Origin: Methylocystis parvus OBBP
GTDB lineage: Bacteria; Pseudomonadota; Alphaproteobacteria; Rhizobiales; Beijerinckiaceae
Reading direction: 5' to 3'
DNA: 64,000 nucleotides
Assembly (NCBI RefSeq): GCF_027571405.1
Contig: NZ_CP092968.1
Coordinates: 930,001-994,000 of the forward strand
Shown: one piece after another, positions 24,171 to 28,792 of the stretch
Layout: each line of letters starts with the position of its first letter
Position numbering within the stretch: position 1 is the first letter of the stretch
Program-made: the position numbers and the translations under genes
Notes under the pieces: generated by a model
Told to the model about the DNA's origin: nothing
Database searches by the model: none
The model's input: only the letters and a program-made list of their open reading frames with translations

Positions 24171-24521
24171 ATGCTCTATTACGCCGTCAAGGTCATCGTC
24201 TCCGCCCTCGTCATCGTCGCCGTCTCGGAGATCGCCAAGCGATCGACGGGCTTCGCGGCCTTTGTCGCGTCCCTGCCGCTCACCTCGCTTCTCGCCTTCG
24301 TCTGGCTGCGGCTCGAGGGAACGGAGCCCGAGAAGATCGGCGAACTTTCAGGCCAGATCTTCTGGCTCATCATCCCCTCTCTGCTGCTCTTCCCGCTGCT
24401 GCCTCTGCTGCTCCGATATGGCCTCGGCTTCTGGACAGCGCTCGCCGCCGCAGTTGGAGGCACGGCGGGCGCCTATCTTCTGATGCTGCCGCTGCTGCGC
24501 AGGCTGGGCGTCAACCTTTGA
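24171..24521 (+). CDS. DUF3147 family small membrane protein
   Basis: 116 aa with four predicted membrane helices (about 3-20, 25-45, 60-78, 85-108). The motif SEIAKRSTGFAAFVASLPLTS is characteristic of DUF3147. Function unknown. The frame upstream of the ATG at 24171 reads Pro-rich DNA and is not used. Its end overlaps the convergent gene on the other strand by 11 bases. Confidence 0.82.
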   Translation: MLYYAVKVIVSALVIVAVSEIAKRSTGFAAFVASLPLTSLLAFVWLRLEGTEPEKIGELSGQIFWLIIPSLLLFPLLPLLLRYGLGFWTALAAAVGGTAGAYLLMLPLLRRLGVNL

Positions 24522-25572
24522 GGGTCTGATAGGCGTCGTCCACCGCCTCGCGCAGTCCGCGCCAGACGGGATTGATCCTTACGTCCGGCCCCCAATTGTA
24601 GAGGGCCTTGGCGACCTCGGCGATGGTTTCGTTGACGGGCTCGCTGCCGCCTTCCGCGAGTTCATCCGAGAACAGACGCGGCGGCGCGGCGCCCGTCCAG
24701 GCGTCCCAATGTTCGTTCGAATAATTTGATACGCCACGCTGCGCGGCGAGAAGGTCGGGCGTGAACTTTTCGAAGCGTCGATGCAGCGGGCCGCCCGACG
24801 GCTCTGCATTGTAAGCGTCGCGCACGGCGAAATAGCGCAGATGCTGAAGCTCATGCGCGAGACAGCAGCCAAGACGCGCGTCGCTCATATGCGGGTCGTA
24901 ATAGATCGTCACGCGCCCGTCCGGCGTCGCCTCGCCTTCCGACGCGAAGCTCTGACCGAGAAATTCGAAACTCTTACGCTCCGGGCTGAGCGTCACGCAG
25001 CGCGGGTCATGGCCGAATTCGCGGGCCAGCGCGGCCAGCCTATCGCGCTGGCGCATGAAGCCGGGCGTCCGCGTTACGTCCGACGTAACGCCGCCCCCGG
25101 CCGGCCAGTGTGTTTCGTCGGGATCATGCGTGATGCGCCAATCGAAATCCATATGGCGCTCGGCGATATGCTCCCACCACCGCCGCCCGTCCTTCTGAAA
25201 TGGCGACAGATCGTTGACCCGCACATGAGTCAGCGCGCCGGGCCGCTGGCGAAGTCCGTCCATCGCCGCCGCGACCATGCGCCCGCCGAGACCCGGTTCG
25301 ATCGAGTTGATCTGCTCGAAGACGAGCGCGGGAGGATCAAACCTCCCGGCGAGAAGCAGCGCTACGCCGGAAGCCGTCGCATCGCCGGGCGTCGTCATCA
25401 ATTTGGGAGACGTCGACGCTTTGATCTCGACGAAAGAAGCTCCAAACGGCTCCACGCTCACATGGAGACCGAGCGCGCGCAGATTGCGGCTGATCGCGCC
25501 AGCGATTTGCGCGATCGCCGGATCCGTCTTCGCTCCTCCATTTCCAAAGCTCAAGAAACGCCAGAAACCCAT
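24511..25572 (-). CDS. Putative zinc metallopeptidase with HELQH motif
   Basis: 353 aa, not recognised as a named family. There is no signal peptide or membrane helix apart from a hydrophobic start (MGFWRFLSF). LGCCLAHELQHLRYFAVRDAY near residue 240 holds HELQH, a fit to the HExxH gluzincin/metzincin signature with a Glu-rich helix after it; NETIAEVAKALYNWG near 325 could supply the third ligand. The first 110 residues look like a separate alpha/beta domain (ALGLHVSVEPFGASFVEIKAST). It is followed on the other strand by DUF3147 in convergent overlap. Confidence 0.55.
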   Translation of the reverse strand: MGFWRFLSFGNGGAKTDPAIAQIAGAISRNLRALGLHVSVEPFGASFVEIKASTSPKLMTTPGDATASGVALLLAGRFDPPALVFEQINSIEPGLGGRMVAAAMDGLRQRPGALTHVRVNDLSPFQKDGRRWWEHIAERHMDFDWRITHDPDETHWPAGGGVTSDVTRTPGFMRQRDRLAALAREFGHDPRCVTLSPERKSFEFLGQSFASEGEATPDGRVTIYYDPHMSDARLGCCLAHELQHLRYFAVRDAYNAEPSGGPLHRRFEKFTPDLLAAQRGVSNYSNEHWDAWTGAAPPRLFSDELAEGGSEPVNETIAEVAKALYNWGPDVRINPVWRGLREAVDDAYQTLKG

Positions 25573-25619
25573 CACACCCGCCTGCCTTCGCCATATTTAC
25601 CGCAGGCGACGTTGCCGAA

Positions 25620-26240: not shown

Positions 26241-27398
26241 CTATCCGACGATCGCGTGGGGGATAAAGCGCGATCGGTTCGACGTCACCGGCGAGGAATC
26301 TTCCCGTATGCCCATCCCGGCGGGCTCGCCGCCCACGACCCAGGAGCCGATGACCGGATAGCGCCCGTCGAAACAGGGAAGCATATGCAGCGCCTGCCGG
26401 ACGTGCCCCTCCGATCCGTAGCTCCCCGGCGCGCTCGCGACCGCGCGGCCGCTCTCGATCAACACGACATTGGCGCCTTCGCGCGAATAGATCGGCTTCT
26501 TGGCGTAGCTCTCGCCGAGCGACGCCGCGCGCGGATCATCGGCGAAATGGCATTCGAGCAGATTTGGGTGGCCCGGCGCGAGCTCCCACAGAAGCGCCAA
26601 CATGCCCTTGTTCGACAAAAGCGCCTTCCATGGCGGCTCGACGAAGCGCGTGTAGCGCATCGCAGGCGCATGGGAAAATTCGTCGGCGAACATCCACTCC
26701 CAGGGATAGAGCTTGAAGAGCGTCTCGATCCTCCGGCCGTCGCGATCGCAAAATTGGGAACCCTTGAGCCCGATATCCTGCAAATCGAGCAACGCGGCGG
26801 CGCAGCCCGCCTGCGTCGCGCAATCGGCGAGATAGGCGGCGGTGCCGAAATCCTCGACGCTCGCGCTCATCGCGGCGAAATGGACGAAGCTCTTTGGCGC
26901 GAGCGTCTCCCACCGCGCGATGAGCTTGTCGTGCAGCGCGTTGAATTGATCCGCGTCCTTGGGCAGCGCGCCGCTCTCCATGAGCTGCTCCAGCCAATGC
27001 CATTGCACCACGGCGGATTCGAAGAGGCTTGTCGGCGTGTCGGCGTTGAATTCGAGCAGCTTGGGCGCGCTCGCGCCGTCATAGGCGAAGTCGAAGCGGC
27101 CATAGAGCGACGGCTCGCATTTACGGAAGCTCTCCGCGACGAGATCGCGCGCATGTTTGGGAATATGCAGGCGATCCATCATTTTCTCGCTGGCGACGAT
27201 GCGCCAGACAAGCTCGTGACAAAGCGCGTCGATCTCGCTCGTCGCCTTTTCGATGTCGTCCTCGATCTGGCGGAGCGTGAAGACGTAGCGGACGCTCTCG
27301 TCCCAATAAGGCTCGCCGTCCATATGCGCATAGGCGAAGCCGATCTCGTCGAAATGCTTCTTCACGTCCGCGCGAGGTTGTGAATTTTCTCGTTTCAT
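26241..27398 (-). CDS. Glutathionylspermidine synthetase-like ATP-grasp ligase (YjfC/YgiC type)
   Basis: 385 aa, synthetase (ATP-grasp) part only; the amidase domain of E. coli Gss is absent. FNADTPTSLFESAVVQWHWLE, LQDIGL, FKLYPWEWMFADEF, RFVEPPWKALLSNKGMLALLWEL and SYAKKPIYSREG are the conserved blocks of this clade. Known members join an amine to a C-terminal glycine carboxylate (glutathione plus spermidine), but the YjfC/YgiC clade has no proven substrate. Its ATG overlaps the stop of the Gly-tailed gene before it (TGATG), so the two are translationally coupled. Confidence 0.9.
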   Translation of the reverse strand: MKRENSQPRADVKKHFDEIGFAYAHMDGEPYWDESVRYVFTLRQIEDDIEKATSEIDALCHELVWRIVASEKMMDRLHIPKHARDLVAESFRKCEPSLYGRFDFAYDGASAPKLLEFNADTPTSLFESAVVQWHWLEQLMESGALPKDADQFNALHDKLIARWETLAPKSFVHFAAMSASVEDFGTAAYLADCATQAGCAAALLDLQDIGLKGSQFCDRDGRRIETLFKLYPWEWMFADEFSHAPAMRYTRFVEPPWKALLSNKGMLALLWELAPGHPNLLECHFADDPRAASLGESYAKKPIYSREGANVVLIESGRAVASAPGSYGSEGHVRQALHMLPCFDGRYPVIGSWVVGGEPAGMGIREDSSPVTSNRSRFIPHAIVG

Positions 27399-27766
27399 CA
27401 GCCGCCGCCGAAAAAGCCGCCCGAGTGGCCGAAACCCCCGAAGGAGACGCCATGCGTCGAGCCGGAACCGCCGCCCCAATGCCAGGCGCTGCCGGAGCGC
27501 CGATAGCTGGAGGAGGATCCGCCATGGCTGCCGCTATGTTTGCAGATGAGTTCGTCCGGCTTGGCGGGGTCGGGCTCGCAATTGAGCTTGCGGTCGATCC
27601 AGTCGAAAGTCTCATAGGCGCCGAGCGTGACCGCGCCCATCAATGCGAGCGATACGGCGAGAGAGCGCTTCTGGCCGGAGATGATTTCGCCCGGCGGCTT
27701 GGGCTTGTGGACGACGACCGGCGGAGGTCCGCGCTTGCCGAAACTGTTGGGCTTTTCATCCGCCAT
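27398..27766 (-). CDS. Small Gly-tailed membrane protein, YgiB/YjfM (DUF1190)-like
   Basis: 122 aa. A Lys/Pro-rich cytoplasmic start (to about residue 33) precedes one membrane helix (about 34-52, LAVSLALMGAVTLGAYETF). Two cysteines follow in a short spaced pair (LNCEPDP...LICKHSG), then a Ser/Gly-rich tail with SFGGFGHSGGF and a C-terminal Gly-Gly-Gly. The Cys pair, the GGFG-x-S motif and the DUF350 and ATP-grasp neighbours resemble YgiB/YjfM proteins. A second protein of the same plan is encoded at 28256. It starts three bases after the DUF350 gene. Confidence 0.7.
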   Translation of the reverse strand: MADEKPNSFGKRGPPPVVVHKPKPPGEIISGQKRSLAVSLALMGAVTLGAYETFDWIDRKLNCEPDPAKPDELICKHSGSHGGSSSSYRRSGSAWHWGGGSGSTHGVSFGGFGHSGGFFGGG

Positions 27767-27769
27767 GGC

Positions 27770-28174
27770 TTAGGGGCTCATGCAAGCGGCGCTGAGAAGG
27801 CCGGCCGAGACGGACACGGCCGCGACCCATATCGCCGCGGCCAGAACATTTTCTTCGATCGCGCGCGAGAGGCCGGAATAGGCGAGCCGTGCGAGCGCGT
27901 AAGCGATGAGTTGCGTCATGAGCGCGACGAACCCCCACATCGCGAATTCCGGAATCGACCCCGTATGGTGGATCGCCCCGGCGAGCGCGATCGCGAAGCC
28001 GAGAAGGCTGCCGCCGAAGGCGATCGCCGCGGAAGCGCTCTGCTCCTCCACGATCAGCGCGAACTCGTCGTGACGCGTCACGCGCGTATAGACGAGGCAG
28101 TAGACCGCGCAGAAACCGACCGCCCCGGCGAAATAGACGGCGAAGGCCAGCAGGCCGGAAAGGAAGTCGGGCAC
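27770..28174 (-). CDS. DUF350 (YjfL-like) membrane protein
   Basis: 134 aa with four membrane helices in two repeated pairs (FLSGLLAFAVYFAGAVGFCAVYCLVY; SAAIAFGGSLLGFAIALAGAI; then two more), the standard DUF350 layout. The conserved ...SIPEFAMWGFVALMTQLIAY block is clear. The chosen start is GTG at 28174, because AGAGAGG lies seven bases upstream and DUF350 proteins begin directly with this segment; an ATG at 28210 would add 12 residues. It is the second gene of the ATP-grasp cluster. Confidence 0.85.
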   Translation of the reverse strand: MPDFLSGLLAFAVYFAGAVGFCAVYCLVYTRVTRHDEFALIVEEQSASAAIAFGGSLLGFAIALAGAIHHTGSIPEFAMWGFVALMTQLIAYALARLAYSGLSRAIEENVLAAAIWVAAVSVSAGLLSAACMSP

Positions 28175-28255
28175 GGCGGGGCCTCTCTTTGCTGAGTCGG
28201 GGCGAAGCATAGCACAAACGCGGCGTTACGCTGTGCGGGAGCGCACGGGGCTGGA

Positions 28256-28792
28256 TCAGCCGCCGCCGCTGAAACGCCACGCGCCAGAGTCGCCGAAACC
28301 GCCATAGCGCGCGCCGGCGCCGCTCCCGCCATGCTGCTTGAGAAACGCGTCGCGCGATCGGTCGCTCTCCGACATGAGCTGCGTAACGCCGTTGTCGATC
28401 AGGCGCGCGCCTGCGCGCTCCTCCCGCCAATATTCCTGGCAAAGGCGCTCTGCTTCAGAGCCCGAATAATAGCCGTCGCGGCAATTGTGCTGACGCCGCT
28501 CGCTGCTCCCCACGCCCGCGATCACGACGCCCGCGCCGATAACGGCGATCGAGACGATGACGGTCGCTGAACGCTTGCGTCTTTCCTCCAGCGCGACGGC
28601 GAATTCGGTTTTCGGCTTTTCGAGCACTGATTGGGAGAGAGACTTCGCGCCGGCCGCGCGGCGGATCGAAGAAGCTTCGAGGACGTTCGCCGACTCCCCC
28701 GTTTCGCGGGGCTCTGGCGTCGGCATGGGATCACGATGTTCGGACACATGCGCAGTCACGCCAGAAGCGGACTGGCGACTTAGAGGGTTCAC
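28256..28792 (-). CDS. Second Gly-tailed single-span membrane protein of the ATP-grasp cluster
   Basis: 178 aa with a GTG start chosen for an AAGGA site seven bases upstream; a shorter ATG start exists at 28726. A long polar N-terminus is followed by one membrane helix (VIVSIAVIGAGVVIAGVG), a cysteine pair (HNCRDGYYSG...RLCQEYW), and a tail RYGGFGDSGAWRFSGGG ending in Gly-Gly-Gly. The order of helix, Cys pair, GGFG-x-SG motif and GGG terminus matches the smaller protein at 27398, so the two look like diverged paralogs. It is the first gene of the cluster, 81 bases before DUF350. Confidence 0.65.
   Translation of the reverse strand: MNPLSRQSASGVTAHVSEHRDPMPTPEPRETGESANVLEASSIRRAAGAKSLSQSVLEKPKTEFAVALEERRKRSATVIVSIAVIGAGVVIAGVGSSERRQHNCRDGYYSGSEAERLCQEYWREERAGARLIDNGVTQLMSESDRSRDAFLKQHGGSGAGARYGGFGDSGAWRFSGGG

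Follow-up and report, generated by a model that had tools for sequence, protein, structure and literature searches.

Results

A ligase gene and two tailed membrane proteins lie together

The DNA analyzed here, which we call the window, is a stretch of 64,000 nucleotides from Methylocystis parvus OBBP (contig NZ_CP092968.1, positions 930,001 to 994,000). On its minus strand, we found four consecutive genes that encode a putative ligase, a DUF350 membrane protein and two small single-span proteins, which we refer to as proteins A and B:

28256-28792, minus strand: protein A, 178 aa with a GTG start; a basic stretch followed by one hydrophobic helix, a Cys pair and a C-terminal tail
28259-28306, minus strand: tail of protein A, YGGFGDSGAWRFSGGG, which reaches the stop
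27770-28174, minus strand: DUF350 membrane protein, 134 aa with a GTG start; PF03994
27398-27766, minus strand: protein B, 122 aa; laid out as protein A, and shorter
27401-27442, minus strand: tail of protein B, FGGFGHSGGFFGGG, which reaches the stop
27396-27400, minus strand: TGATG, formed by the stop of protein B and the start of the ligase
26241-27398, minus strand: ATP-grasp ligase of the YgiC/YjfC kind, 385 aa; PF03738, with matches to 7uk6 and 7uk8

All four genes were found as described in the original prediction, and its account of the two small proteins, each with a helix, a Cys pair, the motif GGFG(D/H)SG and a terminal GGG, is exact for both A and B. The TGATG coupling that it had pointed out is likewise present, in that the frames of protein B and the ligase share a single base. 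The start chosen for protein A is supported by two homologues, which begin at the matching codon. Neither protein A nor protein B matched any Pfam or NCBIfam family above cut-off, and neither matched PF06693 (DUF1190) at E ≤ 1; both have the traits of DUF1190-type tail proteins, in which an N-terminal anchor and a Cys pair are followed by a GGFG tail that ends in a small residue. Protein B shares 79% identity with a protein of Methylocystis parvus, and the ligase 78% with that of Methylocystis sp. Sn-Cys. The DUF350 protein matched PF03994 with an E value of 1.7e-30 (106.2 bits; cut-off 26), and its predicted structure, which is of low confidence (pLDDT 59.7; 5 sequences), consists of four long helices.

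We also looked at the surroundings of the locus and at a known Gly-Gly sorting signal. A family scan of five flanking genes yielded PBP downstream, GSDH/DUF7133 upstream, DUF72 and DnaJ, as well as one gene (24511-25575) with no family; neither a PspA family nor a peptidase family was matched among these five, and no yjfI, yjfJ or yjfK neighbors were seen at the window locus. In the GlyGly-CTERM signal of the rhombosortase system, a C-terminal membrane helix and a basic end come after Gly-Gly; proteins A and B gave no NCBIfam match at E ≤ 1, and nothing follows their final Gly. The presence of two tail proteins at one locus was observed at three loci in all, this window, L034 and L065.

The ligase resembles YgiC and YjfC and has no amidase domain

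PF03738, the only family found in the window ligase, spans residues 14-383 of 385 (E = 2.9e-141), and the closest solved full-length relatives by phmmer are E. coli YjfC (7uk6, E = 2.8e-109) and YgiC (7uk8, E = 3.2e-109), with far weaker matches to trypanothione synthetase and GspSA. The end-to-end matches to 7uk6 and 7uk8, together with PF03738 as sole family in a protein of 385 aa and a score against NF007801 of 134.6 of 882 bits, far below the cut-off, bear out the prediction of a YgiC/YjfC homologue that lacks the amidase domain. RefSeq names the products of E. coli ygiC and yjfC peptide--spermidine ligase, a name that presumably goes back to Pederick et al. 2023. By its sequence, the window ligase is a putative peptide-polyamine joining enzyme of the YgiC/YjfC kind.

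To compare residues, we aligned 125 members of the ligase family with seven GspSA proteins. R101, D103, E116, N118, K264, K301, R306, Q335 and R365 (window numbering), catalytic residues of the GspS fold, are, together with E127, conserved in both the ligase family and GspSA, whereas T121-P122-T123 of the ligase family stands against S-A-S at the matching GspSA positions. In GspSA, Ser337 is reported to assist the attack of the amine and Glu391 to bind spermidine (PMC6272389). Since T123 of the window ligase aligns with Ser337, and E182 (Glu in 121 of 126) is conserved next to the Glu391 position, itself occupied by the variable V181 (GspSA positions numbered by counting from Ser337), the amine site looks largely kept.

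A tail gene accompanies the ligase in many genomes

We collected ligase loci from 289 class genomes (46 with the ligase) and 398 phylum genomes (90 with PF03738), as well as from Methylocystis relatives and E. coli K-12. After removal of duplicates, 148 loci remained, 136 of the YgiC/YjfC kind and 12 GspSA controls (open frames of 621-656 aa, at most 260 bits); the census leaves out L035, L083 and a fragment at G383:C2, which hold no whole ligase frame. We found a tail gene near the ligase at 131 of the 136 YgiC/YjfC-type loci, in the first flank at 125 and a few kb off at six, compared to none of the 12 GspSA loci. The first pass had given 127 of 136, from which L076 and L086 were removed by eye as chance frames and to which the six farther-out loci were added. 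Nearly all of the first-flank tail genes (116 of 125) immediately precede the ligase in the same orientation, with 20 bases or fewer to the ligase start in 103 cases, and a TGATG-type one-base overlap is the commonest spacing (18 of 116). As a control, the strict motif was found in the last 50 residues of 11 of 2665 opposite-strand frames, three of which are real divergent tail genes (L096, L103, L153).

The five loci with no tail gene are L076, L085, L086, L087 and L133, and the genomes of three of these (G182, G051, G556) have another ligase locus with a tail gene. When loci were binned by the percent identity between their ligase and the closest of three query ligases, the tail was present at 105 of 106 loci with at least 45% identity, at 25 of 26 with 35-45%, and at 1 of 4 below 35%.

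We also examined eight plasmid loci, five of them from outside Pseudomonadota, out of 60 listed matches (158 records matched). A protein with a Gly/Ser-rich tail is encoded directly upstream of the ligase at seven of the eight, five of which belong to other phyla:

Pseudarthrobacter plasmid: AVSRGGFGGTAKGGSGS
Deinococcus plasmid: VSRGGLTSTARGALSSGG; a DUF350 gene is present
Bacillus subtilis plasmid: SSGIGKSSSSKSSGFGG
Brevibacillus plasmid: KGIGSIKGGGAGS
Trichormus plasmid: VSGFGSFRSGGSSS
Acinetobacter plasmid: VSRGGFGGAVSSGG
Sphingomonas plasmid: VSRGGFGSSARRFGSIHA

The Azospirillum plasmid locus (ligase 28% identical) has no tail gene. Among the plasmid loci examined, exact RGGFG occurs outside Pseudomonadota in Pseudarthrobacter only. 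The Pseudarthrobacter tail lipoprotein (L203:4501-4998) is annotated 'tRNA-dihydrouridine synthase', apparently a wrong name.

A fixed motif, a variable spacer and a small last residue

We filtered 128 tail proteins to 92 that share less than 70% identity in their last 60 residues, and found that the conserved element is R-G-G-F-G-x-[S/T], which a spacer of 7-26 residues separates from a small residue at the very end. The commonest residues around the motif are V-S-R-G-G-F-G-S-[S/T]-[G/A]; within RGGFG itself, R is found in 72, G in 80, G in 92, F in 87 and G in 90 of the 92. The last residue is G in 56 tails, S in 28, T in 5, A in 2 and E in 1, and the next-to-last is G in 76. When every spacer was shuffled 5000 times, a small last residue (G, S, T or A) was expected in 66.4 tails (91 seen), a Gly in 25.3 (56 seen) and a GG end in 7.2 (55 seen); no shuffle attained the observed number of small, Gly or GG ends.

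Within the family of protein B, GGFG lies in the last 30 residues of all 46 members, which end in GGG (33), GGS (9), FGG (2) or SGG (2). We rejected a terminal GGG as the defining feature, since 9 of the 46 end in GGS and relatives also end in GS, AT, AS or SS. The original prediction, which had named unconserved terminal glycines as grounds for refutation, is contradicted in part: a small end is conserved in 91 of 92 tails and GG is present in 55, but a terminal Gly is missing from 36. The comparison across genomes that it had proposed as a check speaks for the most part in its favor (tail gene at 131 of 136 loci, against none of 12 for GspSA), but the element that co-occurs with the ligase is RGGFG with a small end, not GGG.

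We asked how ligase columns relate to the terminal tail residue. With kinship ignored, the top columns were F102 and G100, flanking R101 and D103; the nearest ligase neighbor has the same terminal class in only 67 of 97 cases, and the correspondence between column and tail end is not a clear one.

Counts of GGFG by themselves were rejected as proof, because the coding pattern is merely common in the Methylocystis genome (222 occurrences, compared to 186 for the reversed control). As judged from the sequences, GGFG is above chance through its C-terminal place beside this ligase family in many genomes. Of the 1272 DUF1190 relatives found by a profile search, the 120 listed, which are mostly enterobacterial, all have the motif in the last 45 residues, and they end in G (113), T (5) or S (2). 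A weak tail profile of 20 positions, based on 60 of the 92 tails, had four matches in the Methylocystis genome at E ≤ 10, with the window tails ranked first and fourth (E = 0.18 and 4.6). This profile revealed no other tail protein in the genome: the motif in L170 lies 144 residues before the stop, and L171 has no C-terminal tail. Elsewhere, one gene (L160:3136-3996, plus strand; the same gene occurs in L012) encodes an N-terminal motif-like TRAGFGETG in addition to a C-terminal RGGFGSTS.

Nine DUF1190 proteins without a linked ligase have no RGGFG tail

In the class set, the ligase is present in 42 of 45 genomes with DUF1190, and a DUF1190 match in 42 of 46 genomes with the ligase. In the phylum set, PF03738 is present in 61 of 63 genomes with DUF1190, and DUF1190 went unmatched in 29 of the 90 that have PF03738; among the 29 are genomes with GspSA only and many whose tail proteins are short and escape the Pfam model. 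The DUF1190 matches of the Methylocystis genome (G000) and of G455 are different from their tail genes.

We found no RGGFG tail in any of nine DUF1190-domain proteins that lack a linked ligase. No ligase was matched in three genomes (G145, G264, G627), whose DUF1190 proteins end without such a tail, although G039, of the same genus as G264, has both ligase and tail. Six DUF1190-domain proteins distant from a ligase, two in the Methylocystis genome, three in G455 and one in G639, are likewise without the tail. We did not count G194 among the ligase-less genomes, since its contig ends 172 bases past an intact tail gene. Of the nine tail-less proteins, several are only remotely related to DUF1190 (E values up to 1.8e-4), and their missing tail may be mere divergence. 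The two Methylocystis proteins are encoded at G000:C1:4016401-4016643 (L211) and G000:C1:1457461-1457604 (L212), beyond the limits of the window and away from the ligase. The C-terminal part of the tail-less DUF1190 protein of G264 (L232:5371-6135) reads like decayed sequence.

Tail carriers are predicted to be exported

By simple sequence rules, 59 of the 92 tail proteins have a lipobox, 30 have an N-terminal hydrophobic helix and three are borderline. We scanned 95 tail proteins (88 of the 92 plus seven from plasmids), of which 64 matched DUF1190; almost no variation was seen among the 95 in two Cys columns and in the G-F-G columns of the tail. The tails are predicted to lie outside the cytoplasm and the window ligase has no evident export signal; therefore, modification would have to precede export. 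The E. coli carrier YgiB is reported among the proteins increased in vesicles of a tolA mutant (PMC7973035) and is listed as a lipoprotein (PMC3210124), and a table of BaeR-regulated genes groups tolC-ygiA-ygiB-ygiC as an operon, of which only tolC changed (PMC2731931). A triplet of basic residues and Ser/Thr (e.g., KRS) occurs within the first 80 residues of 71 of the 92 tail proteins, usually immediately ahead of the hydrophobic segment, both in lipoproteins and in single-span proteins.

Discussion

The sets ygiB-ygiC and yjfL-yjfM-yjfC of E. coli K-12 are like the window locus in that their ligases are full-length homologues in the 47-48% class, the yjf set includes a DUF350 gene, and the partner proteins carry a tail with RGGFG (YgiB) or RGGYG (YjfM) that ends in GG. 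The window differs from E. coli in having two short tail proteins that fall outside Pfam DUF1190 and have a membrane helix in place of the lipobox. The operon pairing of this ligase (a GspS-related ATP-grasp enzyme) with DUF350 and DUF1190, often with PspA, is already published (Ravi et al. 2024; PMC11237479). The window has the ligase and DUF350 in common with those operons, whereas no PspA/CesT dyad was found among its scanned flanking genes; variants without the dyad are also described there, and the available part of that paper makes no mention of the tail or of a substrate. Attachment of spermidine to a C-terminal GG has been documented for the protein SUMO and, in vitro, for ubiquitin (PMC12270671). 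That modification is a polyamine amide on a C-terminal GG, as proposed here, but it is eukaryotic and uses E1 and E2 (PMC12270671), whereas a single ATP-grasp enzyme is proposed for the bacterial case. The open-licence literature, sampled in part and with few subscription papers covered, yielded no account of the tail, nor any of YgiB or YjfM as substrates of the ligase.

From these comparisons, we think it probable that the locus encodes a peptide-polyamine ligase of the ATP-grasp type together with proteins dedicated to it as substrates, since an enzyme of a polyamine-joining kind is encoded in tandem with the tail proteins, the last residue of the tail is small, and where the ligase is absent, so is the tail. 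RGGFG would dock the flexible tail onto the ligase, ATP would activate the C-terminal carboxylate of the tail, and a polyamine would be joined to it as an amide, in the cytoplasm and prior to export; the tail protein would then display a covalently held polycation outside the cytoplasm, where it plausibly binds anionic components of the envelope. Docking of a flexible acceptor is suggested by the fixed motif at variable distance from a constrained end. The chief objection concerns location, since the tails are predicted outside and the ligase inside the cytoplasm; action of the ligase ahead of export would remove it. That DUF350 is a membrane partner is a guess. The inference of the original prediction, that the ligase joins an amine to the C terminus of both membrane proteins, gains from the co-occurrence of a constrained tail with the ligase and loses in that a Gly end is not general.

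Might the tail instead be a docking or regulatory partner that recruits or controls the ligase, while other peptides are amidated? The better conservation of RGGFG than of the end, the range of the spacer from 7 to 26 residues and the occurrence of the motif also near the N-terminus of one tail protein would all suit such a role, but it does not explain why 91 of 92 tails end in a small residue, and the predicted location of the mature tail is outside the cytoplasm; we consider such a role unlikely. We give still less credence to the tail as an envelope targeting or assembly signal, with the ligase merely in the same stress pathway. Although the tail carriers are exported, N-anchored proteins, and YgiB is listed in E. 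coli vesicles (PMC7973035) and as a lipoprotein (PMC3210124), the nine exported DUF1190 proteins found to have no linked ligase all lack the tail, and the tail is common to lipoproteins and single-span proteins.

Two other explanations seem far less probable. If the tail were cut after RGG, such that the exposed RGG end was the substrate, the part discarded would include the constrained last residue, and no peptidase family was found among the five scanned flanking genes; this makes such a cut very improbable, even with R-G-G conserved before F (72, 80 and 92 of 92). Slimmer yet are the chances that the enzyme is a plain glutathionylspermidine synthetase with unrelated neighbors. The window ligase and GspSA do have in common the Pfam family, the catalytic residues and the amine-site positions, but the amidase domain is found in GspSA alone, GspSA proteins share just 26-28% identity with whichever of the three query ligases fits best, no tail gene is present at any of the 12 GspSA loci, and YgiC is described in one report as being without Gsp activity (PMC12506659).

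With the tail read as the substrate of the ligase, we lean, somewhat more cautiously, toward a broader proposal: that several phyla have a dedicated C-terminal polyamination of envelope proteins, in which a YgiC/YjfC ligase would read RGGFG before export and cap the protein with spermidine or homospermidine, such that a covalently bound polyamine would be carried into the envelope, with YgiB and YjfM as model substrates. YgiB/YgiC and YjfM/YjfC are present in E. coli K-12 and many other bacteria, and the comparison points to one candidate substrate, the C-terminus of the neighboring envelope protein, for which the expected gain in mass would be 127.147 Da with spermidine (value from PMC12270671) and 141.163 Da with homospermidine. 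If this is true, bacteria gain a pathway of protein C-terminal polyamination and polyamines are tied to the envelope by a covalent bond.

The Methylocystis genome also bears on which polyamine would be used. It encodes a homospermidine synthase (L235:541-1968, minus strand; E = 8.7e-244 to PDB 4plp), compared to one weak spermine-synthase match (E = 1.5e-5). Because of this difference, the amine used in this organism is probably homospermidine.
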